Assembly (NCBI GenBank): GCA_902595815.1
Contig: CACJRL010000001.1
Span: 1 to 64,000, forward strand
Length of the DNA stretch: 64,000 bases
Reading direction: 5' to 3'
From: an uncultured Pelagibacteraceae bacterium
GTDB taxonomy: Bacteria; Pseudomonadota; Alphaproteobacteria; Pelagibacterales; Pelagibacteraceae
This document shows positions 30,102 to 46,416 of the stretch, piece after piece. Numbering within the stretch: the stretch's first letter is position 1; every line of letters starts with the position of its first letter. Made by a program: the position numbers and the translations under genes. The notes under the pieces were generated by a model. It saw only the letters and a list, made by a program, of their open reading frames with translations. It had not been told where the DNA came from and did no database searches.

Positions 30102-31120
30102 TGACTAAAATTTGTATATTTGGAGCAGGGTCTATTGGTGGATTTATTGCTACGAGTCTAAAAAAAACAAATGCACAAGTCTCTTTAATTGCTAGAGGAG
30201 AACATAAGAAAGCAATAGAGCAAAATGGATTAACTTTTATAAGAGATGATAATAAAGTTAATTTTAAATTTGATGTAACTGACAATCCTAAAGATTTGGA
30301 TGAACAAGATTTCATAATTATTTCTGTAAAAGCTAATGCTATTAGTAAAATTTCAGAAAGCTTAAAACCAATTATGGGTAAAAAAACTTCTATTATATCC
30401 GCCATTAATGGATTGCCTTGGTGGTACTTTCATAAAGCTAATACGGGCACCAAATTAGACAATCAAATAGTCGAAAGTGTGGATCCAGGCGGAAAGATAT
30501 GGCAAACTCTAGGACCTGAAAGAGCAATTGGTTGTGTAGTTTATCCAGCCTGTCAGATATTAGAGCCAGGTGTTATTAAACATAATGGTAATGGTGAACG
30601 ATTTTCTTTAGGTGAACCAGATGGAACCAGATCAGAAAGACTAAAAATAATTTCAAGTTTATTCATAGAAGGGGGTTTAAAAGCTCCTCAGAAGAAAAAT
30701 TTAAGAGACGAAATTTGGGTGAAACTGTGGGGAAACTGTTCGTTCAACCCAGTAAGTGCTCTAACGAATAAAACTATGGATGAGATGGGTAATGATCCAG
30801 AGACTTACAATTTAATAAAAGTTTTAATGCAAGAATGCCAACAAGTTGGGGAAAAAATTGGAGTTAAATTCAATATATCAATTGAGGATCGAATTAAGGG
30901 TGGAGTCTCAATTATAGGACATAGACCTTCGACAGCTCAAGATCTAAATGCTGGTAAACCATTAGAAATAGATCCAATAATTGGATCAATTATAGAAATT
31001 GCAAATAAACTTGATTTAAATGTTCCAAAATTAAAAGAGATTAATGAAAAATTAAAGTCCAAGGCAGAAGACATGGGTCTTTATACAAGATCAGAATTAA
31101 TTGATAAATTAACAGTTTAA
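30101..31120 (+). CDS. 2-dehydropantoate 2-reductase-like protein
   Basis: ApbA/PanE-family NADP-dependent reductase, 339 residues. The Rossmann loop is IFGAGSIGGFIA near the N terminus. The C-terminal helical domain has the family region KLWGNCSFNPVSALTNKTM, with Lys and Asn expected for catalysis, and HRPSTAQDLNAGKPLEID. It is slightly longer than PanE (about 300). Family members also act on other 2-oxo acids. Neighbours are not pantothenate genes, so I do not assign panE. It is convergent with the TRAP permease gene (4-base overlap of ends). Confidence 0.85.
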   Translation: MTKICIFGAGSIGGFIATSLKKTNAQVSLIARGEHKKAIEQNGLTFIRDDNKVNFKFDVTDNPKDLDEQDFIIISVKANAISKISESLKPIMGKKTSIISAINGLPWWYFHKANTGTKLDNQIVESVDPGGKIWQTLGPERAIGCVVYPACQILEPGVIKHNGNGERFSLGEPDGTRSERLKIISSLFIEGGLKAPQKKNLRDEIWVKLWGNCSFNPVSALTNKTMDEMGNDPETYNLIKVLMQECQQVGEKIGVKFNISIEDRIKGGVSIIGHRPSTAQDLNAGKPLEIDPIIGSIIEIANKLDLNVPKLKEINEKLKSKAEDMGLYTRSELIDKLTV

Positions 31121-33780
31121 AAATTTAGTGAAATATCTCTATGTATTGAATTACATTTAGATACATAGATAGCTTGCTCTTTGGTTAGTTTAGACTGCAA
31201 CCTTAGTCCAATTGTTTCTTTGATTGCATTATTATATTCCTCAAGTTTTGGCATTAAGTTTTCTTTAGCATTTGCTCTCCAGCTAACTTCTTTATTGAAT
31301 AACTCAACAACTTCTTTTGATTTTGTTCTAATCGCCATTGGATCAAGTTCGTCTGAGTCAACCATTGATAATAAATCATCTACACTATTTAAAAATTCAT
31401 CCATTCCAGAGATCTCACTCAACTTGTCAAACAATCCATCCATAATTGTAACTGATCTTTCATATACTTTTGTATTGCTTTCCATAGCTATAAAATAATC
31501 TAACTGTTTAATATCTTTTGATACTTCTTGAAGTTTTACTCCATCGTTTATAAACATTGCGAACTGATCAAGTAGATCATAGGCTTCATCTACATTCTTT
31601 CTATATCTTTTTGTTGTTGTATTTTTAGCTTTATTTATTTTGTCGAATTCTGAATTCTTAGCTTGCCAAGTTTCTGGGATTGAGTTTTGAATTTCCTCAA
31701 TTTCAAGTTTTACATCCTCAATTCTTAATTCTATTTTATTTTTTTCATCTAATTCGTCATCATCTAAATTTCTAATTTCTGCTTTATATTTTTCAATTTT
31801 TTTATTTAATTTAAGTATTTTCTTTTGCTTTTTTCTAACAGTGAAATGCAGATCCCTATAATCAACAGCATATGCGTTGTATTCGACCTCAACTTTTTTT
31901 AATTTATCGACTAGAGCAAAAGTTCCTAATGCACTATCAAAATGATCTTCTAAAATTTCCATTTTATCATCTGGCAGATTAGTTGGTGCCTCAGATTGAA
32001 ATTTTAATATTGCATTTTTAATTGTCTCACCGTTTGTATCAAATCTTGCAAATTTGTACTCTTGCAAACAGTACTGTAATTTAGGATTCATTGGTGGAGG
32101 AGCAACATTCGAAGTTAAATATACCCTATTTGGCAGATAATTTACTAAGCTAGGGTATGCACCAACTATTCCTAATCCTATAAGCTGAAGAATTATAAAA
32201 GGCACAACACCTTTCCAAATATCAAGTGTTTTAACAATTTTGGGAGCTACACCTTTCAAATAAAAGAGTGCAAATCCAAATGGTGGCGTTAAGAATGAAG
32301 TCTGTAAGTTAACACCAATCATAACTCCCAACCAAACGGCTGTGACGTTAGCCCCTGTTTCAGCTAATAATATTGGTGCAATTATTGGAACAACAACAAC
32401 TGCAATTTCAATAAAGTCTAGGAAAAATCCAAGCAAGAAAATTACAATCATCACAACAACAAATTGTGTCCAAAAACCGCCTGGTAAATCTTGTAAAAAG
32501 TCTCTGACTAATTCTTCTCCCCCAAAAGCTCTAAATCCTGAAGTAAGCATTGCTGCTCCTAAAAGAATAATAAATACCATTGAAGTAGTCACACAAGTTT
32601 CTGTTACAACTTCTTTTAAAACATTTTCTGTTTTAAAAGTTCTCCAAAAACTCCAACCTATTCCGTATACAAGTATGACCACAAAGAAAGCGGTAATAAA
32701 GATTGCGCTTAAATCTCTTTCCTCCAAATTTTTTACATTTAATTCATAATTTGAAGCAAAGAATGTAATTGGAATTAGAGATCCAATAATTAAAATTAAA
32801 GGATAGAACGCACTTTTCTTTCCTTCATATAATCTATAACCAGCCATCAAAGTGGCACCAATTGCTCCAATTGAACCTGCTTGGTTTACAGTAGCAATAC
32901 CCATTAAAATTGAACCTAATACAGCGAATATTAATGCAAGTGGTGGTATGATAATTACAACTACTCTTAACCAAAATTTTAAATCAAAATTTCCTTTAAA
33001 TGGAACTGGCGGTGCAACACCTTTCTTTATTCTAGCAAAAATAAATACATAGATCATATAAAGAGCAACTAACACAAGGCCTGGTAAAAGTGCTCCTAAG
33101 AACATATCACCTGCACTTGATGAACCTACTCTAAATTCACCTGGCATATTAAATTCACCAGTTAAGGCTTTATAATCATTTTGTCTTAAGTTGTTTGCAA
33201 CATCAGATGCACTTGCCAACTGGTCAGCAATAATAATTAAAACAATTGATGGAGGAATAATTTGACCTAATGTTCCTGATGAACAAACTATTCCACTAGC
33301 AAGTTGTCTGTCATACTTGTTATTTAACATCGTTGGTAACGAGATTAGTCCCATCGCAATTACAGTTGCTCCAACGATACCAGTCGTTGCTGCTAATAGA
33401 GCTCCAACAAATATAACTGAAATTCCTAAACCACCAGGAATTGGTCCAAATAATTGGCCCATTGTTATTAATAAGTCTTCGGCAATTTTTGATTTTTGAA
33501 GCATAATTCCCATGAAAATAAATAAAGGAATTGCGATCAAAGTATCTGTTTCTACATCCCAGTAATTACTCCTAAAATTTGTAATACCGGCAACGAGCCA
33601 TTCTATAGGTCCATCTACAGCAAAAAAGGCACTGGAGTCTCCCTCGAATATGTAGCCAAAAAATGCAGCTAAACCAATTGCAATTATAGCTGAACCAGGT
33701 AGTGCAAAAGCAACCGGGTAACCCGATGCAAGAGCAACAATCATTATGACAACTAGAACAGCTAAAAAGAACGTTTCCAT
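31117..33780 (-). CDS. TRAP transporter large permease with long soluble C-terminal extension
   Basis: DctM-type large membrane subunit of a sodium-driven TRAP importer. Typical DctM proteins are about 430 residues; this has 887. Residues 1-548 are largely hydrophobic helices with DctM features (GYPVAFALPG, IPLFIFMGIMLQKS, SSGTLGQIIPPSI, FLDFIEIAVVVVPI, SFLTPPFGFALFYLKG). Extra hydrophilic loops lie near 200-225 and 345-355. Residues about 555-887 form a soluble, charged, helix-rich tail with strong coiled-coil character (about 640-720: KKQKKILKLNKKIEKYKAEI). I do not recognise this tail. It follows the DctQ-like gene by 3 bases. Confidence 0.92.
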   Translation of the reverse strand: METFFLAVLVVIMIVALASGYPVAFALPGSAIIAIGLAAFFGYIFEGDSSAFFAVDGPIEWLVAGITNFRSNYWDVETDTLIAIPLFIFMGIMLQKSKIAEDLLITMGQLFGPIPGGLGISVIFVGALLAATTGIVGATVIAMGLISLPTMLNNKYDRQLASGIVCSSGTLGQIIPPSIVLIIIADQLASASDVANNLRQNDYKALTGEFNMPGEFRVGSSSAGDMFLGALLPGLVLVALYMIYVFIFARIKKGVAPPVPFKGNFDLKFWLRVVVIIIPPLALIFAVLGSILMGIATVNQAGSIGAIGATLMAGYRLYEGKKSAFYPLILIIGSLIPITFFASNYELNVKNLEERDLSAIFITAFFVVILVYGIGWSFWRTFKTENVLKEVVTETCVTTSMVFIILLGAAMLTSGFRAFGGEELVRDFLQDLPGGFWTQFVVVMIVIFLLGFFLDFIEIAVVVVPIIAPILLAETGANVTAVWLGVMIGVNLQTSFLTPPFGFALFYLKGVAPKIVKTLDIWKGVVPFIILQLIGLGIVGAYPSLVNYLPNRVYLTSNVAPPPMNPKLQYCLQEYKFARFDTNGETIKNAILKFQSEAPTNLPDDKMEILEDHFDSALGTFALVDKLKKVEVEYNAYAVDYRDLHFTVRKKQKKILKLNKKIEKYKAEIRNLDDDELDEKNKIELRIEDVKLEIEEIQNSIPETWQAKNSEFDKINKAKNTTTKRYRKNVDEAYDLLDQFAMFINDGVKLQEVSKDIKQLDYFIAMESNTKVYERSVTIMDGLFDKLSEISGMDEFLNSVDDLLSMVDSDELDPMAIRTKSKEVVELFNKEVSWRANAKENLMPKLEEYNNAIKETIGLRLQSKLTKEQAIYVSKCNSIHRDISLNF

Positions 33781-36112: not shown

Positions 36113-37417
36113 TTATCTATAGTTATTGAATATTTTGGCATGGTTTAACATGCTTAGATCTTCAAATTGTTTGCCTATAATTTGCACTCCTAAAGGCAAA
36201 TTTTGTTCACCTTTCAAAATTGGCAGTGAAATGCAGGGCACATGTGCTAGAGACCAAATCTTATTAAATTCTGGACTCCCAGTTGTCTTAAATCCTTTGT
36301 CAGCAATTCCACAACTACTTGGCGTTATAATTGCATCAAACCTTTCAAATATACTATCTAAGTTTTTTGAGTACGTTCTCATCGCATCTAAAGCTAAAGC
36401 ATAATCTTTTGCCGAATGTTTTAGTCCATTAATAATTGCTTTCTTAATTTCTATAGAAAGTTTTCTTTTTGAAGTTTTGAAATAATGATGGAAATTTTGA
36501 GCCATCTCTGTCTCATATATAATTGTATGACAATCAATCATATCTTCAAAATATTTGGGAGCAGTCTCAACCTTTAATATTTTTTTATTATTTAAAATAA
36601 ATTTGTTAAATGATATTTTTGAAATAGTATCAACATTTCTCCAGCGTTTTGTTTTATAAAAAACAAATTTTGATTTTTTTTTTTTTATTTTTTTATTTAG
36701 AAAATTAATACTTGTTGTTGTTTCATCTGCATCGTCTCTAGCAAACAAAACTTTCGATAAGAGTTCTACATCGCTAATTGTTTTTCCAAATACTCCGACT
36801 TGATCTAAATTATATGATGTTTGCAAAACACCATTTCTAGAGATTAATCCATAAGTAGGTTTATAACCAACAACTCCACAATAAGAGGCTGGCCTAATTA
36901 CAGATCCACCCGTTTGAGTTCCAATTGATAATGGTGCCATATCAGATGCAATAACAGCTGCAGAGCCACTAGATGAACCTCCTGGTGTTCTTGAATAATC
37001 ATGTGGGTTTTTGGTTTTTGATGGCGATAAGAAAGCTAATTCACAAGTTACGGTTTTGCCCATAATTATTGCTCCAGCCTTTTTTAAGAGCTCAACAATT
37101 TTAGCATCTAAATTATTCTTTTTTTTTAATTTTATTCTTGCACCATATTTTGTTGGCATCTCAGATGTTGAGATAATATCTTTAAGTGCTACTGGTAGAC
37201 CATGCAAAACCCCTAAAGATTTTAATTTTTTTCTCTGATTGTCAGATTTTTTTGCATCACTTAGGAGTTTTTTTTCATTAAAATATTCCCAAGCTTGAAC
37301 ATTGTTATCATATTTTTTTTTTTGATTGATATATGCTTTACAAAGTTCAACGGAAGTTAATTGTTTATTTTTAAGTTTTTTTAAAAGTTGTTGTGCTGAT
37401 AAATTTAGGAGTTTCAT
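36113..37417 (-). CDS. Amidase-signature family hydrolase
   Basis: 434 residues of the amidase-signature family (GatA-like fold). The Ser-cisSer-Lys triad is visible: the lysine in GLPVALKDIIS and the serines in TPGGSSSGSAAVIASD, with QTGGSVIRPASYCGVVGYKP. Substrate is an amide of unknown type. It is not likely to be GatA itself, because gatB/gatC are absent here and the C terminus ends soon after LGVQIIGKQFED. It lies between the ABC importer and the TRAP operon and may process an imported compound (inference). Confidence 0.88.
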   Translation of the reverse strand: MKLLNLSAQQLLKKLKNKQLTSVELCKAYINQKKKYDNNVQAWEYFNEKKLLSDAKKSDNQRKKLKSLGVLHGLPVALKDIISTSEMPTKYGARIKLKKKNNLDAKIVELLKKAGAIIMGKTVTCELAFLSPSKTKNPHDYSRTPGGSSSGSAAVIASDMAPLSIGTQTGGSVIRPASYCGVVGYKPTYGLISRNGVLQTSYNLDQVGVFGKTISDVELLSKVLFARDDADETTTSINFLNKKIKKKKSKFVFYKTKRWRNVDTISKISFNKFILNNKKILKVETAPKYFEDMIDCHTIIYETEMAQNFHHYFKTSKRKLSIEIKKAIINGLKHSAKDYALALDAMRTYSKNLDSIFERFDAIITPSSCGIADKGFKTTGSPEFNKIWSLAHVPCISLPILKGEQNLPLGVQIIGKQFEDLSMLNHAKIFNNYR

Positions 37418-37424
37418 TTATCCC

Positions 37425-38498
37425 TTAAACTAATTTTTCATCAGAATAAACGCAACATTTCTCTGGCGGAAAATATAAATTTAATTCTCCGTCTGGAATA
37501 GGTTTTTCTCTTTCTACTTTTGACTTAATCACTAAATCACCCATTTTTCCTGTAAGGAGCTTAAAATTACCAAAGTCCTCAACTCTTGTGAGTTTAATTT
37601 TAACTGTATTACTTTTTTCTTTTTCAGCCAATTCTATGAACTCGGATCTAATTCCTAGTTTAACATTTTTATCTTTTAAATTTCCTAAATTTGAATTTGT
37701 CTTAATAGTGGTATCATTAATTTTTACTTCATGATCAGAGGATACAGTTGAATGAAAAATATTCATCGCAGGGGAGCCAATAAAATAACCAACAAAAGTT
37801 GTTTTAGGTTTTTCAAATAAATCTTTTGGCAATCCAACTTGCACGATTTCACCTTGATCCATAACAATTATATTTTCGGCAAAAGTCATAGCTTCGTTTT
37901 GATCATGAGTTACATAAACCAATGTTGTTTTATATTGTTCATTGATTTCTTTTAAATTTCTACGAAGTCTAAATTTTAAATCTGGGTCTATAACCGTAAG
38001 AGGTTCGTCCATTAAAACAGCTGCAACGTCTTCTCGAACCAACCCTCTACCTAAAGAGATAAGTTGTTTTTGATCAGCCGTTAATTTTCTTGCTGGTGAA
38101 TTTAAAAATGAAGATAAGTTTAAAGTATCTGAAACTGCTTTTACTCTTTCTTCAATTTTTTCTTTTGTAAATTCCCTACATCTTAGAGGAAAAGCTAAAT
38201 TATCATAAACAGTCATTGTATTGTAAATTACTGGGAATTGGAAAACTTGGGCAATATTTCTATCTTCTGTTTTTAAATCGGTCACAGGTGTTTCATCGAA
38301 TAATATTTCACCTTTGGATGGCCTCACTAATCCAGAAACAATGTTTAACATTGTTGTTTTTCCACACCCAGAAGGTCCCAAAATTGCGTACCGCTTGCCA
38401 TTTTCCCAAGTCATTGAAAACGGATTAAGAGCATATGTTGGTTTTGGATCTATAGGATTATAAGTATGAGAAATATTGGATAAATCAATTTTAGCCAT
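37425..38498 (-). CDS. ABC importer ATPase 1 (MalK/UgpC class, divergent signature motif)
   Basis: ATP-binding subunit of a CUT1-type importer with a C-terminal regulatory/TOBE region. I place the start at 38498 (MAKIDLSNISH) because GGAGGA lies 5 bases before this ATG; an upstream ATG at 38510 has no such site. This gives 357 residues and an 8-base overlap with the other ATPase gene. Walker A is GPSGCGKT (41-48), Walker B VLMDEP (161-166), and the switch His198 is in YVTHDQNEA. The ABC signature LSGGQ is replaced by LTADQ (139-143). Its partner has the complementary pattern. Confidence 0.92.
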   Translation of the reverse strand: MAKIDLSNISHTYNPIDPKPTYALNPFSMTWENGKRYAILGPSGCGKTTMLNIVSGLVRPSKGEILFDETPVTDLKTEDRNIAQVFQFPVIYNTMTVYDNLAFPLRCREFTKEKIEERVKAVSDTLNLSSFLNSPARKLTADQKQLISLGRGLVREDVAAVLMDEPLTVIDPDLKFRLRRNLKEINEQYKTTLVYVTHDQNEAMTFAENIIVMDQGEIVQVGLPKDLFEKPKTTFVGYFIGSPAMNIFHSTVSSDHEVKINDTTIKTNSNLGNLKDKNVKLGIRSEFIELAEKEKSNTVKIKLTRVEDFGNFKLLTGKMGDLVIKSKVEREKPIPDGELNLYFPPEKCCVYSDEKLV

Positions 38499-39570
38499 TT
38501 GTTCCTCCATATGGAGATGAAACTAATTTTTCATCTTCTGAAAAAGCATAAAACTTATTTGCATTAAAATTTATTTTTACTTTCTCATGAATTTTAAAAT
38601 TCATTACTTCCTCGATTAAAGCGATTATTTTTGAATTTCCTCTTTTTAAGTGAAGCAATGTTTCTGAACCACTAATCTCTGCTAATTCAATTTCGAATTC
38701 TTCACCATCTTTATCAAGTTTTATTTCTGAAGCCCTAATTCCAAAATTATAATCTTTATCTTCTAAATTCTTAAAATGATTTGGAATTTCTAAAGAAATA
38801 TTCTCAAAGTTCAGATTTTTTGAATTTTTTGAACCCTTCAGAACATTCATTGGTGGATCATTTGATATTTCTGCAACTTTTAAATTAGATGGATTTTCAA
38901 AAATCTCTTTGGCGGGCCCTTTTTGTAATACCTTCCCTTCATCTAAAACAATTACTTCTCCATTTAGTTCCATTACTTCTTGAGGATCAGTTGTTGAATA
39001 AATTAAAATTGTATCTTGAGACAGTCCTTCTGAGAAAATTCTTTTAAATTCTTCTCTTAATTGTTCTCTGAGTTTGTAATCTAAATTAACTAACGGTTCA
39101 TCTAGCAACAAAATTTTTGCTTTTTTTGCAAGTGATCTTGCAAGTGCAACCCTTTGTTGCTGTCCGCCAGATAATTCCTGAATTTTTCTATTTTCAAATC
39201 CAACTAATCCAACAGTTTTTAGAGCTTCATTTACATCTTTTTTTATTTGCTCAGGACTTAATTTTCTTTGTTCTAATGGAAAAGTTATATTTTCATAAAC
39301 ATTTAAATGAGGGTAATTAATAAATTGTTGATAGACCATAGCAACATTTCTTTCCCAAACTGGTATTTTAATAAAGTCTTTTTCCTCAAAAGAAATTGAG
39401 CCTTGATCTGGATTTAATAATCCTGCAATTGTTTTTAAAAGAGTCGTTTTGCCAGATAATGTCCTGCCTAAAATAGTATACAAATTACCTTTTTTAAAAT
39501 TAAACGAGACATCGTTTAAGTGAAATTGCTCATCGGGTTTATAAGAAATTTTCTCTCCAACTAAATTCAT
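38491..39570 (-). CDS. ABC importer ATPase 2 (switch histidine replaced)
   Basis: Second ATP-binding subunit of the same importer, 359 residues. Walker A is GRTLSGKT (35-42), signature LSGGQQQR is intact (133-140), and Walker B is ILLLDEP (153-159). In the H-loop, the usual YVTHD reads YSTTD, with Thr194 in place of the switch histidine. The C-terminal half is a TOBE-like regulatory region. Two-ATPase CUT1 operons are known for glycerol (GlpS/GlpT) uptake, so a polyol-type substrate is possible but not established. Its ATG overlaps or abuts the permease stop by one base. Confidence 0.92.
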   Translation of the reverse strand: MNLVGEKISYKPDEQFHLNDVSFNFKKGNLYTILGRTLSGKTTLLKTIAGLLNPDQGSISFEEKDFIKIPVWERNVAMVYQQFINYPHLNVYENITFPLEQRKLSPEQIKKDVNEALKTVGLVGFENRKIQELSGGQQQRVALARSLAKKAKILLLDEPLVNLDYKLREQLREEFKRIFSEGLSQDTILIYSTTDPQEVMELNGEVIVLDEGKVLQKGPAKEIFENPSNLKVAEISNDPPMNVLKGSKNSKNLNFENISLEIPNHFKNLEDKDYNFGIRASEIKLDKDGEEFEIELAEISGSETLLHLKRGNSKIIALIEEVMNFKIHEKVKINFNANKFYAFSEDEKLVSSPYGGTNG

Positions 39571-40418
39571 TATTTTAATGCTCCTGATAAATTTCCTTTT
39601 GATAGATATCTCTCAACTATAAATGCAACGATTATTAATGGTGCAACTGAAACCAAAGCAGATGCAGAAAGGCTCCACCATGGTGTTATTGATGAATTAA
39701 GTGCAACGACTTTTACAGGTAATAATTGTACTTCAGTAAATGTTAAAATAAATGCAAAAAAGAAATCTATCCATCCAAAAATAATACAAAACATTCCCGC
39801 AACAATTAAACCAGGTATTGAATTTGGTAAAACAACTTTATAGAAAGCTTGATAGGGATTACACCCATCAATTAATGCAGTCTCATCTAATTCTTTTGGA
39901 ACTCTATTAAAAAAATCTACCATAATCCAAACAGCAATTGGCATCAATAAAACGATATATACGACCACTAGACCTAATAAACTATCAAGCAATCCTATTG
40001 TGCTTAGAAAAATAAAGAAAGGAATTGATAATACAATTGGAGGCATGATTCTTTGTGAAATGAAGAAAAAAGTAATATCGTTGTTTCTTACAAATCCGGC
40101 TTTAAAAGTAAATCTTGATAGTGCGTAAGCAGCGAGAGTACCAAGAACAATACTTATTAAACTAGCAGTACAGGTTACAAAAATACTATTAAAATAAGGC
40201 TCAACGATATCTACTCCACCTTTCGCAGGAGACTTAATTAAAACTCTCCAACCCTCCAATGTTGGTTCGAAATCTAACCAAGGAATATAAGTAACTTTAC
40301 TATTTACAGATTGGAAGTCTTTAAAAGATGTTGATACAGCCCACAGAAATGGCGCAACAACAAATACAGTCCAAAATGTAATAAAGAAATATTTAAGAAA
40401 AGTGTAAAGTTTGCTCAT
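39570..40418 (-). CDS. ABC importer permease, MalG type
   Basis: 282-residue inner-membrane permease with about six helices. The EAA coupling motif is ELDETALIDGCNPYQAFYKV, followed by VLPNSIPGL. It is the MalG/UgpE-like partner of the adjacent MalF-type permease. It lies 2 bases after that gene, and its stop meets the ATPase 2 start. Confidence 0.94.
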   Translation of the reverse strand: MSKLYTFLKYFFITFWTVFVVAPFLWAVSTSFKDFQSVNSKVTYIPWLDFEPTLEGWRVLIKSPAKGGVDIVEPYFNSIFVTCTASLISIVLGTLAAYALSRFTFKAGFVRNNDITFFFISQRIMPPIVLSIPFFIFLSTIGLLDSLLGLVVVYIVLLMPIAVWIMVDFFNRVPKELDETALIDGCNPYQAFYKVVLPNSIPGLIVAGMFCIIFGWIDFFFAFILTFTEVQLLPVKVVALNSSITPWWSLSASALVSVAPLIIVAFIVERYLSKGNLSGALK

Positions 40419-40420
40419 AG

Positions 40421-41287
40421 TTATTCTTTGATCATTAATTTGGTTAAAACTTTAGCTATTATCGTTAAACTGATAATCATTATGACAAGATAGGTGAAAG
40501 ATAAGGTTGCTGCATAACCCATCTGAAATTCTCTTAATCCTTTAATATAAATATAAAAACTTGAGGTCTCAGTTGCAGTACCTGGTCCTCCTGAAGTCAA
40601 AACAAATACTGTATCCATTATTTTTGAAGCCTCGATAAGTCTTATTATTATTGCTCCAATTGATATTGGAGCCATCAAAGGAAAAGTTACATAAACAAAT
40701 TTTCTAAATGGACTTGCTCCATCTATAGCGGCTGCCAAAAAGGGTTCTTTTGGAAGTGACAAAAGTCCAGCTAGTAAAAGTAAAAACATAAACGGTGTCC
40801 ATTGCCAAACCTCAACAATTATAACAGTAAACTTCGCAATAACTGGATCACTCAACCATAAAATAGGTTTTACTCCTAATCCGCCTAACAAATCATTTAC
40901 AGGACCTAGCGATTCATGAAAAAATGTTCTCCAAATAACTGTCATTATTACTGGAGTTGTCATCATGGGTACTAGAAAAATTACTCTAAAAAATCTTTTA
41001 AATTTTATTTCTCTCCAAACCATCATCGCTAGAGCAAATCCGATAACATATTGAAGAATAACTGTGGTAACAGATAAAAAACTTAACCTAAAAAAAGACT
41101 CCCAAAACCTAGGGTCATCAGTAAATAACCTTATATAATTCGTAATACCTATGAAGTTCATTTCTGGAGTATAACTATTCCATCCAGAAAGACTTAATCT
41201 AATAGTAAAAATAATTGGAAAGATTAAAATTCCAATAAGTACAAACAATCCTGGGAATAAAAAAACAAACTTGTGTTTAAAATTCAT
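40421..41287 (-). CDS. ABC importer permease, MalF type
   Basis: 288-residue permease with about six helices. The EAA motif is EPFLAAAIDGASPFRKFVYV, then TFPLMAP. The short N-terminal cytosolic part (MNFKHKFVFLFPGLFVLIG) is typical of UgpA-like subunits rather than E. coli MalF with its large periplasmic insert. A hairpin separates it from the upstream binding-protein gene. Confidence 0.94.
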   Translation of the reverse strand: MNFKHKFVFLFPGLFVLIGILIFPIIFTIRLSLSGWNSYTPEMNFIGITNYIRLFTDDPRFWESFFRLSFLSVTTVILQYVIGFALAMMVWREIKFKRFFRVIFLVPMMTTPVIMTVIWRTFFHESLGPVNDLLGGLGVKPILWLSDPVIAKFTVIIVEVWQWTPFMFLLLLAGLLSLPKEPFLAAAIDGASPFRKFVYVTFPLMAPISIGAIIIRLIEASKIMDTVFVLTSGGPGTATETSSFYIYIKGLREFQMGYAATLSFTYLVIMIISLTIIAKVLTKLMIKE

Positions 41288-42908: not shown

Positions 42909-43970
42909 TTATGGAACTAACACTGCACGACCTTTGACTTTTCCGTCATTAAGATCATGTAGCGCCTTGTTAGCATCATCTAATTTATATTCCTGCATAG
43001 ATAGCTTGACTTTACCTCTGTCAGCTAATTCCATGAGCTCGTATAATTCAGACCACGTTCCTACTAAATTTCCGACTATTGTTTTTTCAGATATTATTAA
43101 ATCTACGGCTAAAGATTTGATCTCCTCTCCATAACCCACAATATAATAAAAACCTCCATTTGAAGTCATTTGAATTCCCATTGCAGTCGATCCTTTTTCA
43201 CCAACGAAATCAATTACAGCCTCAGAACCTTTTCCCTTGGTTAACTCTTGAACTTTTTCAATTTCGTTTCCATCAATCAAAACTCCGTGATCTCCACCCA
43301 ACTCCATTGCATGTTTAAGAGCTTTTTCTGATTTCTCTACAATAATTATATCTGCTGCACACATTGCTTTTAAACATTGAATAGCAATATGTCCTAAACC
43401 CCCAGCACCTATGATTGTACAACTTTGACCAGGTAGTAAATGTCTAGTAGCTTTTTTTACAACTCTATAAGCAGTTAAACCAGCATCAGAAAATGGAGCA
43501 ACATCTTTAGGTGCCAATACTGTTGGCAATTTAATTAAATTCCTCACACTTGTTTTTAAAAGTTCTGAATATCCACCTTCTTTAATACTTAATCCTGGGA
43601 AAGCTCCAGCGGCGGCATGCATATCGTTACCTCTTCTACAGTCAAGACATGTTCCATCTGTTCCAGATATAAGTGGATGCAAAATTACTGGATCTCCTTT
43701 TTTAAATTCTGTAACGTCTTTTCCAACATCTTCTATCCAACCAGCATTTTCGTGACCCATAACGCAAGGAAGAAGTTTTCCGTCTGGATCTTGAATATGT
43801 TTCCAAACTCCTTCAATTATGTGTAGATCGGTTCTGCAAACACCAGCTGCACCAATTTTAACTATTACATCAGAAGCCTTTTCTATTTTTGGATCAGGCA
43901 TTTCTTGATTTGTGACCCAAGTTCCGTCTTTCATTTCTGGGTCGTACTTATGTAAAACCTGTGCTTTCAT
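42909..43970 (-). CDS. Zinc-dependent alcohol dehydrogenase (MDR family)
   Basis: 353 residues of the medium-chain dehydrogenase family. The catalytic zinc region has VCRTDLHIIEG and GHENAGWIEDVGKDV; the NAD loop is GAGGLGHIAIQ. The structural-zinc lobe, normally four cysteines, keeps only two (GTCLDCRRGNDMHA), with Asp and Ala at the other two positions. A strong Shine-Dalgarno (GAGAGGGA) precedes the ATG. It lies 24 bases upstream of the ABC binding-protein gene, which hints that the importer carries an alcohol or polyol that this enzyme oxidises (inference). Confidence 0.9.
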   Translation of the reverse strand: MKAQVLHKYDPEMKDGTWVTNQEMPDPKIEKASDVIVKIGAAGVCRTDLHIIEGVWKHIQDPDGKLLPCVMGHENAGWIEDVGKDVTEFKKGDPVILHPLISGTDGTCLDCRRGNDMHAAAGAFPGLSIKEGGYSELLKTSVRNLIKLPTVLAPKDVAPFSDAGLTAYRVVKKATRHLLPGQSCTIIGAGGLGHIAIQCLKAMCAADIIIVEKSEKALKHAMELGGDHGVLIDGNEIEKVQELTKGKGSEAVIDFVGEKGSTAMGIQMTSNGGFYYIVGYGEEIKSLAVDLIISEKTIVGNLVGTWSELYELMELADRGKVKLSMQEYKLDDANKALHDLNDGKVKGRAVLVP

Positions 43971-44077
43971 TATTTCCCTCTCTAAAATTAATTTTTTAAA
44001 GTTAAATCTTAAAATGAAAAAAAAAATATGTCTAGAAAGTTAGAATAATTTTAAATACCAATTACAACTTGAGATTG

Positions 44078-45031
44078 TTAATTAACTTTATTTTTGCATC
44101 CACCCGTTTTAAAAAACTCGTCCATATTATCTATGGCTAGATTAGCCATTGCAGTTCTAGTTTCTTTGGTTGCGCTGCCTAGGTGAGGGAGAATAAAAGC
44201 ACTTTTGTGTTTAAGATATCCAGGATTTAAATTTGGTTCATTTTTATATACGTCCAGCCCAACTGCATAAACTTTTCTTCTTTCCAAAGCATCTATTAAA
44301 GCTTCATCTTCAATAATATCTCCTCTTGCAACATTGGTCACGACTGCACCTTTTGGTAATAGTTCTAGTGTATCTTTATTGATTAAATTTATTGTCTCTT
44401 TAGATGCGGGGCAACATACCGAAAGGACATCAGAGACTTTCATCAAATCATTTAAGTTGTCGTGGTAAGTTGCGCCTTGTTCTTTTTCTTCGCTTAATTT
44501 TGAACGATTGTGATAATGAATTACCATACCTAAAGATTTAGCTATTTTAGCTATTTTTTGACCAATTCTACCCATGCCAAGTATTCCAAGTCTAGTGCCT
44601 GTTAATTGTTTACCAATCAACATATCTGCCGACCAAACCCAGCCGCCTACTCTTGCTTTTTCAATTCCTTCAGATGCTCTTCTGCATGCACCTAATATCA
44701 ACAAAACCCCAATTTCAGCAGTGGCATCAGTTAAAACATCTGGCGTGTTTGTAACTGCGATCCCTCTTTTCTTTGCAGCTTCTAAATCTATATTTCCAAA
44801 ACCTACAGCAAAATTTGATATAATTTTAACACTATCAGGTAATTGATTAATTGTTTCTGCATCGAGCTTATCTGTTAAAGCTGATAAAATACCATCACAG
44901 CCTGCACTCATCTCTATTAGCTTCTTTTGAGAGTAGAGTTCATCATTTAAATTAAAGTTAGCATCAAATAATTCTTTAGCTTTATCCTCACAAGATCTTA
45001 AAAGCCTTCTCGTGATTAAGATTTTTTTCAT
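44078..45031 (-). CDS. D-isomer-specific 2-hydroxyacid dehydrogenase (glyoxylate/hydroxypyruvate reductase-like)
   Basis: 317 residues. The NAD(P) loop is LGILGMGRIGQKIAKI. Catalytic residues are the Arg in NVARGDIIEDEALI and the His in LPHLGSATKETRTAM. SNFAVGFGNIDLEAAKKRGI is the substrate-side loop. It is most like GyaR-type glyoxylate reductases. It precedes a GlcD-like flavoprotein by 11 bases in the chromosome and probably shares a transcript with it, suggesting glycolate/glyoxylate or lactate turnover. Confidence 0.9.
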   Translation of the reverse strand: MKKILITRRLLRSCEDKAKELFDANFNLNDELYSQKKLIEMSAGCDGILSALTDKLDAETINQLPDSVKIISNFAVGFGNIDLEAAKKRGIAVTNTPDVLTDATAEIGVLLILGACRRASEGIEKARVGGWVWSADMLIGKQLTGTRLGILGMGRIGQKIAKIAKSLGMVIHYHNRSKLSEEKEQGATYHDNLNDLMKVSDVLSVCCPASKETINLINKDTLELLPKGAVVTNVARGDIIEDEALIDALERRKVYAVGLDVYKNEPNLNPGYLKHKSAFILPHLGSATKETRTAMANLAIDNMDEFFKTGGCKNKVN

Positions 45032-45042
45032 TTTGTTTTAGA

Positions 45043-46416
45043 TTAATTTAGATCAAAAACCTTACCAGGATTCATGATATTGTTTACATCAATACTTCTT
45101 TTAATAGCTTTCATCACTGGTAAATTATCTGGATGCTCTCTTAAAAGGTAATGTTTTTTTTGAAGACCAATTCCATGTTCTCCTGTAATTGTTCCCTCTA
45201 ACTCTAAAGCTTTGTTAATTAAATCATCGCTGTACTGCCTAATTTTTTTTTGTTTTTCTTCATCATCAGGATCATACAATATTATAGAATGAAAATTTCC
45301 ATCCCCGACATGACCAACCATCGGTGCAGTTAGACCTAACTTTTTAACCTCTTTTTCTGCCCACGAAATACACTCTACTAACTTTGAAATTGGTACACAA
45401 ACATCTGTAGAGTAAACTTTCATATCATGACCTAAAGCTTTTACTGAATAATAAACATCATGTCTTGCTTTCCAAAGTATTTTTTGTTCTTCCGGAGAAG
45501 ATGCCCATTGAAAATCACTTCCACCATTATTTTTTGATAATTCTTCTACAATTTTAATAGACTCATTATTCGATAGCTCACTTCCATGAAATTCAAAGAA
45601 TAAAGTTGGTGATGCTTTGATGTTTTCTAGCTTTGAATATTTAATGCTAATTTCCATTTGGTCTTTGTTTAACATTTCAATTCTTGCAATTGGAACACCA
45701 TACTGAATAACTTCTTGCGCTGTCTTTACTGCTGAGTCTAAATCTGGAAAATAGCAAACTGCACTCATTATGCTTTCAGGTATTGGTGATAGTCTTAATT
45801 GAACTTCTGTAATAATTCCTAATGTTCCCTCAGATCCAATAAACAAATTAGTTAAGTTATATCCCGCAGAAGTTTTTTTAGTTCTTGCACCAGTTTTAAT
45901 TATGTCTCCATTTGGTAAAACAACTGTTAAGCCAGAAATTACTGTTCTCATTGTTCCATATTTCACTGCCATTGTTCCTGAAGCTGAAGTAGATGCCATT
46001 CCACCGAGTGCAGCATCCGCACCAGGATCTATTGGAAAAAATACTCCATCTTCTCTTAAATATTCATTTAATTGCTTTCTTGTTACATTTGCTTGCACTC
46101 TGCAGTCAAAATCCTCAGCATTTACACTTAAAACTTTGTTCATTTTTTCTAAAGAAATCGTAATACCATTTTGATTTCCAACAACATGGCCTTCAAGAGA
46201 TGTGCCGGTTCCAAATGGAACCACTGGAATTTTATGCTCGTTACAAATTTTTAGAATTTTTGAAACTTCTTCATTAGTTTCTGGAAATACAACTGCCTTT
46301 GATAATATTGGGTTATAGGTATCTTCCCCTCTTGCATAATTTGCACGAGTAGACTCTGAGGTAGAAAATCTTCCGTTAAATATCTTTTTTAATTCTGCTT
46401 GGACGGTTTCGTTCAT
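45043..46416 (-). CDS. FAD-linked 2-hydroxyacid oxidase/dehydrogenase (GlcD / D-lactate dehydrogenase type)
   Basis: 457 residues with an N-terminal PCMH-type FAD domain (VVPFGTGTSLEGHVVG; DPGADAALGGMASTSASGTM; LFIGSEGTLGIITEV) and a C-terminal FAD-oxidase domain (MVGHVGDGNFHSIILYD; GTITGEHGIGLQKKHYL; IMNPGKVFDL). Such enzymes oxidise glycolate or D-lactate. glcE and glcF are not next to it, which leans towards a single-subunit D-lactate/D-2-hydroxyacid dehydrogenase. Confidence 0.9.
   Translation of the reverse strand: MNETVQAELKKIFNGRFSTSESTRANYARGEDTYNPILSKAVVFPETNEEVSKILKICNEHKIPVVPFGTGTSLEGHVVGNQNGITISLEKMNKVLSVNAEDFDCRVQANVTRKQLNEYLREDGVFFPIDPGADAALGGMASTSASGTMAVKYGTMRTVISGLTVVLPNGDIIKTGARTKKTSAGYNLTNLFIGSEGTLGIITEVQLRLSPIPESIMSAVCYFPDLDSAVKTAQEVIQYGVPIARIEMLNKDQMEISIKYSKLENIKASPTLFFEFHGSELSNNESIKIVEELSKNNGGSDFQWASSPEEQKILWKARHDVYYSVKALGHDMKVYSTDVCVPISKLVECISWAEKEVKKLGLTAPMVGHVGDGNFHSIILYDPDDEEKQKKIRQYSDDLINKALELEGTITGEHGIGLQKKHYLLREHPDNLPVMKAIKRSIDVNNIMNPGKVFDLN

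Follow-up and report, generated by a model that had tools for sequence, protein, structure and literature searches.

In textbooks, CUT1 importers such as MalFGK2 stand for the symmetric kind of type I importer. As a rule their MalK-type ATPases are homodimeric, and E. coli MalK is a single ATPase with canonical motifs that is used twice. The exporters TAP (ABCB2/B3), MRP1, Pdr5 and TM287/288 depart from such symmetry in combining one canonical with one degenerate composite site. As laid out in sections of PMC7756269, each site of an ABC dimer combines Walker A, Walker B and the A-, Q- and H-loops of one subunit with the signature of its partner; according to the same sections, human ABC proteins with a degenerate site always have a changed signature, Glu to Asp is the second most frequent change and common in degenerate human exporters, and the purpose of the degenerate site is still debated in the exporter literature. 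Excerpts of PMC11466899 describe one degenerate ATP site in RbsA and NupO, type II importers whose halves are fused in one chain and whose second Walker A lacks the Lys. Two unlike ATPase genes are also found in the E. coli dipeptide importer DppD/DppF, with ATP-gamma-S modelled in DppF (in part of PMC12136057); this system imports peptides and is likened to ours by its two-gene make-up. A two-ATPase glycerol operon is discussed in PMC7912956, in the main text of which the terms Walker and signature do not appear.

The first-pass annotation of the locus described here held that ATPase asymmetry is known in exporters and seldom discussed for CUT1 importers. Our title and abstract searches of the open-access literature, which leave most subscription papers outside and are no proof of absence, returned no degenerate site in a CUT1 importer, in line with the second part of that statement; the first part was too narrow, since RbsA and NupO are importers. 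Degenerate sites are already known in exporters (sections of PMC7756269) and in these fused importers (excerpts of PMC11466899), and the CUT1 case described here differs from the latter in being encoded by two genes, with Lys and Glu retained and His lost.

The window, that is, the whole stretch of 64,000 nucleotides that was analysed, has a GC content of 31% and derives from a genome assembly of 1.16 Mb that is 83% complete. Its importer operon consists of five minus-strand genes, for a solute-binding protein, two permeases, ATPase 2 and ATPase 1, and together with the alcohol dehydrogenase (ADH) gene ahead of it the order is ADH-SBP-permease-permease-ATPase2-ATPase1. The features are as follows; the assignment of motifs to sites is predicted.

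37425..38498, minus strand: ATPase 1 (A1-type); canonical Walker A and B, Glu165 and His198, degenerate signature LTADQ and D-loop TVID
37905..37907, minus strand: switch His198 of ATPase 1, in the canonical site
37986..37997, minus strand: D-loop TVID of ATPase 1, residues 168-171 (SNLD in most background ATPases)
38070..38084, minus strand: signature LTADQ of ATPase 1, residues 139-143, at the LSGGQ position; in the degenerate composite site
38491..38498, minus strand: overlap of the ATPase 1 and ATPase 2 genes, 8 bases (ATGGCTAA)
38491..39570, minus strand: ATPase 2 (A2-type); canonical LSGGQ and NLD D-loop, Thr194 for His, altered Walker A GRTLSGKTT
38989..38991, minus strand: Thr194 of ATPase 2 at the switch His position, STTD aligned with VTHD; in the degenerate site
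39160..39174, minus strand: signature LSGGQ of ATPase 2, residues 133-137, in the canonical site
39442..39468, minus strand: Walker A GRTLSGKTT of ATPase 2, Lys retained, loop altered
39570..40418, minus strand: permease 2 (BPD_transp_1), 30% identical to the second glp permease of R. johnstonii (L051)
40421..41287, minus strand: permease 1 (BPD_transp_1), 30% identical to the first glp permease of L051
41349..42884, minus strand: solute-binding protein (SBP_bac_1; 27.5 bits, barely above the cut-off of 26), 20% identical to GlpV
42909..43970, minus strand: Zn alcohol dehydrogenase, upstream of the importer genes; leads the operon in all five relatives in which that side is visible

Two BPD_transp_1 permeases and one solute-binding protein give the operon the make-up of a CUT1-type importer. 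ATPase 1 comprises 357 residues from the Met at 38498 (MAKID...); an alternative start 12 bases upstream is possible, and the switch His would then be numbered 202. Its Walker A (GPSGCGKTT, residues 41-49), Q87, Walker B (D164/E165) and His198 are present. The first-pass annotation had described Walker A, Walker B and His198 as intact in ATPase 1 and the signature as LTADQ, and the translation agrees, with the catalytic Glu intact as well. ATPase 2 comprises 359 residues, with Walker A at 35-43, Q81, D157/E158 and the D-loop VNLD at 161-164. The intact LSGGQ and the Thr at the switch-His position that had been reported for it were both recovered, as was the overlap of the two genes.

Both proteins are predicted to have a MalK-like fold. 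Specifically, their AlphaFold monomer models (mean pLDDT 89.4 for ATPase 1 and 89.8 for ATPase 2) match MalK-type chains over ∼350 residues with Z up to 38.5 and 38.2, respectively, and rmsd values of 2.1-3.5, and the match to MalK of MalFGK2 extends over the full length, the C-terminal regulatory domain included. The best solved-chain matches are MalK-type ATPases of other systems, 28-37% identical in the best rows of the structural alignments. UgpC is the top NCBIfam model for both, at a score far under its cut-off, and OB_MalK is above cut-off for ATPase 1, ATPase 2 not being reported by that domain search.

The GlpS/GlpT glycerol importer (GlpSTPQUV) is a sister type of the window operon. 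The Rhizobium glp operon (R. johnstonii 3841, pRL9, L051) likewise has two permeases and two adjacent ATPases, one with LTADQ and His and the other with LSGGQ and Thr, and the suggestion that GlpS and GlpT may have the same asymmetry thus holds for this operon. The L051 record names both genes ABC transporter ATP-binding protein; we take ATPase 1 to be the GlpT-like and ATPase 2 the GlpS-like subunit. The window operon differs from glp in its alcohol dehydrogenase, its binding protein and the lack of GlpU: no extra ORF of at least 80 aa that could correspond to GlpU (DUF2160) lies between the operon genes on that strand, and GlpD, GlpK and GlpR are not beside the operon, the flanking genes being the alcohol dehydrogenase and an amidase. 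In a single comparison, the window binding protein and GlpV were 20% identical over 480 residues (E 3e-11), which makes the former a distant GlpV relative. For the binding proteins of two loci from metagenome-assembled genomes (MAGs), L060 and L131, comparison with the window protein gave 498 and 671 bits, and comparison with GlpV gave 32 and 50 bits. We rejected the reading of the window operon as a glycerol importer because its binding protein, GlpU and linked genes do not match.

The two ATPases are inherited as a pair. In a sample of 398 genomes of the phylum, profiles found 85 places for ATPase 1 (E ≤ 8.7e-144, with an E limit of 1e-112) and 85 for ATPase 2 (E ≤ 1.3e-134; next best 3e-95), counts that refer to the best four to five candidates scored per genome, so that additional, lower-scoring copies may have escaped. 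The places fall in the identical 85 genomes and are adjacent in 85/85, -5 to 84 bases apart, and the complementary motif split was read at every one of these pairs (30, 4 and 51 across three readings). These genome searches covered one phylum; other phyla are represented through a contig-wide scan and plasmids. In the scan, the split was present in 79 of the best 80 of at least 593 stretches. Candidates were selected by the peptides [FM]DEPLTVI or [ML][IV]YVTHDQ, with the signature not a criterion; these peptides include D-loop and His stretches, and ATPase 1 His and D-loop are therefore favoured among the scan loci. In the exception, L104, ATPase 2 is reduced to roughly its 68 C-terminal residues, and this locus was left out of the pair counts. 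At L104:6774-6980, in Mangrovicoccus ximenensis, the 3' end of an ATPase 2 gene lies beside ATPase 1 and near genes that by eye look like carboxylases, a context that reflects either a rearrangement or a wrong assembly join.

Smaller sets gave the same picture. ATPase 1 adjoins ATPase 2, with the split, in all of 41 loci (the window, 10 from relatives, 29 from a class search and the R. johnstonii glp operon), and the remaining loci of the searches of relatives and of the class hold canonical CUT1-like or more distant ATPases that lie outside both families. In the class search, 48 of 49 places fit the split; at the other, L332, the contig ends beside ATPase 1 where ATPase 2 would be expected, leaving no readable pair. 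A further 65 pairs showed the split in 65/65, the His being replaced by Thr in 57 and by Ser in 8. Some named loci repeat a place (L005 duplicates L001, and there are several others). The locus closest to the window among the best 80 of at least 593 is from Pelagibacteraceae bacterium AG-470-G21, with an ATPase 1 that is 87% identical. Two genomes of the window's genus have a second ATPase 1 copy, ∼48% identical, and in one of them (G012, locus L020) the genes flanking it are Glp-like; this small genome holds both kinds of importer, the window type and a Glp-like two-ATPase type (L020, L014).

Distinct sequences define the two families more closely. In ATPase 1 (n = 147), the GG pair of the signature occurs in none and the His in all. 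Signature position 3 is A, P or V and position 4 is D in 141, the class being mostly L[TSGA][APV]Dx with exact LTADQ in 37, and the D-loop is TVID in 144. In ATPase 2 (n = 144), 143 signatures read LSGGQ and the remaining one ISGGQ, the His position is T in 132, S in 10 and A in 2, Walker A follows GxTxxGKT with T at position 3 in 141, and none of the 144 lacks the Walker Lys, the Walker B Asp or the catalytic Glu. The proposed co-occurrence of LTADQ with a His-to-Thr change therefore holds for the paired types, found together in 85/85 genomes, but not for the exact residues, as LTADQ is a minority form and His is also replaced by Ser or Ala. An LTADQ-type ATPase on its own, or independent occurrence of the two changes, had been named as counterevidence; L104 was the sole locus without an intact ATPase 2 among the best 80 of at least 593, and the changes occur together in all 85 pairs of the 398 genomes. 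Indeed, the asymmetric ATPase pair is a family trait and not an oddity of one genome.

Background ATPases retain what the two families have lost. Of 54 non-family ABC ATPases, 47 are CUT1-like, with scores above 200 bits when compared with the family profiles, and both LSGGQ and His are present in 46 of the 47. The remaining seven of the 54 are more distant, with mixed motifs (LSGGM, LSGGE, LGAAK and one LSGGQ), their His being unread in L105 and, in L008, V by pairwise alignment but part of ITHS in a longer alignment. Two further CUT1-like sets, which overlap with the first in that some places recur (e.g., L175 and L221), have SGGQ and His in 18/20 and 20/20. The three exceptions (L181, L203 and L204) are members of a second asymmetric family, described below. 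We then compared motif columns common to at least 90% of 26 background CUT1 ATPases, 15 of them cis (serving the protein's own site) and 11 trans (lent to the other site), in the alignment of the quick tree (see below), scoring a column as deviating when the background residue was present in under half of the family rows (20 ATPase 1, 20 ATPase 2, 7 X and 7 Y). ATPase 1 deviates at 0/15 cis and 8/11 trans columns and ATPase 2 at 7/15 cis and 1/11 trans columns (Fisher p 0.0014, indicative only because columns within a motif are not independent). The lone deviating trans column of ATPase 2 is a D-loop Ser changed to Ala or Val. Thus, two asymmetric motifs absent from the first-pass annotation, the D-loop with TVID in ATPase 1 and the Walker A with GxTxxGKT in ATPase 2, divide in the same way as signature and His. 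Both ATPases also depart from the background directly after the Q-loop Gln, in what is the permease-docking segment of MalK, which would fit a separate permease partner for each ATPase.

The first-pass annotation had proposed that the complementary defects leave one canonical and one doubly defective site. Assuming head-to-tail pairing, the sequences support this: 15 of the 16 deviating motif columns belong to one composite site, in which a changed signature lies opposite a changed catalytic residue. We consider it likely that the operon encodes a heterodimeric MalFGK2-like (CUT1) importer in which one ATP site is canonical and the other degenerate. ATPase 1 and ATPase 2 would be the two unlike ATPase subunits of one such importer. 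Site 1, built from Walker A, Q-loop, Walker B and His198 of ATPase 1 and from LSGGQ and D-loop of ATPase 2, would be canonical and is predicted to hydrolyse ATP. Site 2 would join Walker A, Walker B and Thr194 of ATPase 2 to LTADQ and the D-loop TVID of ATPase 1; it probably binds Mg-ATP, as Lys, Asp and Glu are retained, and most likely hydrolyses it slowly or not at all, as the His is missing and Ala-Asp replaces Gly-Gly, and it may have a structural or regulatory role. The catalytic Glu is kept in all ATPase 2 sequences, unlike in many degenerate human exporters, where Glu to Asp is common (in the sections of PMC7756269 noted above), and site 2 may for this reason still hydrolyse.

This retention is what gives weight to the main alternative, which we regard as unlikely but worth serious attention, namely that both composite sites hydrolyse, with Thr or Ser plus the altered signature a tolerated variant chemistry and the asymmetry tuning rates. 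The invariant Lys, Asp and Glu of ATPase 2 are as this alternative would have them, and the replacement residues look conserved rather than drifting (Thr or Ser in 142/144 and signature position 4 Asp in 141/147); on the other hand, CUT1-like ATPases outside the asymmetric families keep His and signature in 46/46, 18/18 and 20/20, and Walker A, H-loop, signature and D-loop are all altered in the same site. That each ATPase instead forms a homodimer, for different permeases or states, would accord with the MalK-type rule in CUT1 importers and with the further MalK-like ATPases encoded in the same genome. It is nevertheless very improbable given the adjacency of the two genes in 85/85, and an ATPase 1 dimer would have two poor signatures and an ATPase 2 dimer would lack the His at both sites; in the heterodimer, by contrast, one site is complete. 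Motif loss by itself could also resemble decay under relaxed selection, one ATPase becoming dispensable, but the altered motifs are themselves conserved across phyla, and against six relatives dN/dS was 0.03-0.13 for ATPase 1 and 0.03-0.14 for ATPase 2 (dS above 1, near saturation, in three), so that we give this explanation the least credence of all. By these comparisons, both ATPase genes appear to be under purifying selection, and the degenerate site to be conserved in its odd form.

With the asymmetric pair as the preferred reading, the division into two unequal genes makes either site mutable alone, which is impossible in a homodimer, and provides a clean natural system. Such a large and conserved asymmetric CUT1 branch could be used to ask whether each round of import costs one ATP or two, and what purpose the degenerate site serves.

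A second asymmetric pair came from L181, the sole His-less ATPase among 40 fetched background ATPases. Its operon (L202:6083-11965) has the order X-SBP-permease-permease-Y, and both of its ATPases are of the CUT1 type. X carries LSGGE, the D-loop TNLD and a Pro at the His position; Y carries ISEGE and the D-loop SRLD and retains the His. The split (SGGE and Pro in X, EGE and His in Y) was present in 12/12 loci read (L202, L223, L224 and L255-L263), and 229 genomes of the order gave 10 Y-family places (E ≤ 2.5e-145; next best 2.8e-117). In the column test, the deviating columns number 0 cis and 4 trans for Y and 4 cis and 2 trans for X (p 0.076). Two trees were computed with 7 of the 12 X/Y loci and 26 background rows, a quick one with 20 paired loci and a careful one with 15 paired loci and 70 rows, from which motif columns and the outgroups L006, L008 and L112 were removed. 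In the careful tree, A1, A2, X and Y are each a well supported clade (A1 and A2 100/100 apiece), A2 and X lie on one side of a branch (91/85, not starred), and Y groups with 23 of the 26 canonical background ATPases (85/71, not starred). A tree constrained to hold A1 and Y as one clade was not rejected (p-AU 0.416). The quick tree placed Y inside the background ATPases (starred, 96), yet the held-together tree scored better (p-AU 0.636). A single ancient unequal ATPase pair behind both A1/A2 and X/Y is thus possible on these trees. That a CUT1 design with one working site, using about one ATP per substrate and not two, evolved at least twice (GlpS/GlpT-type and X/Y) through different residues is a speculative idea that we hold to be improbable.

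Among the best 80 of at least 593 loci, GlpV and GlpU are both present in 71, at least one of Glp-type permease, GlpV and GlpU in 75, and GlpD, GlpK or GlpR nearby in 60; four are of the window type (L052, L053, L060 and L131), and L083 is cut short. The complete window-type gene order was found in L060 (an actinobacterial MAG), L131 (a Burkholderiaceae MAG) and on plasmids of Ponticoccus alexandrii, Streptomyces sp. NBC_00271 and Tabrizicola piscis, with the motif split in 5/5. The plasmid binding proteins are 53.5-58.5% identical to that of the window, and the annotation of the plasmid and MAG operons is general only (e.g., sugar ABC transporter permease). Ahead of the importer, at 42909-46416, the window has the alcohol dehydrogenase, a D-2-hydroxyacid dehydrogenase-like gene and a GlcD-like FAD oxidase gene, neighbours that hint at oxidation of a small alcohol or glycol. 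By analogy with the glycerol importer relatives, and from the linked alcohol dehydrogenase, our guess is that the substrate may be a small alcohol or polyol.

Several observations concern the surroundings of these operons. An amidase-like gene at 36113-37417, on the same strand, begins 7 bases past the ATPase 1 stop and may be an operon member. Sigma-54-dependent regulators are annotated beside the window-type operon in Ponticoccus and Tabrizicola (L264:5795-7744 and L266:5723-7585), and a GAF-domain protein lies beside that of the Streptomyces plasmid (L265). Elsewhere in the window, at 31117-33780, a TRAP-type large permease of 887 aa is extended at its C-terminus by a charged stretch a few hundred residues long, as judged by eye.
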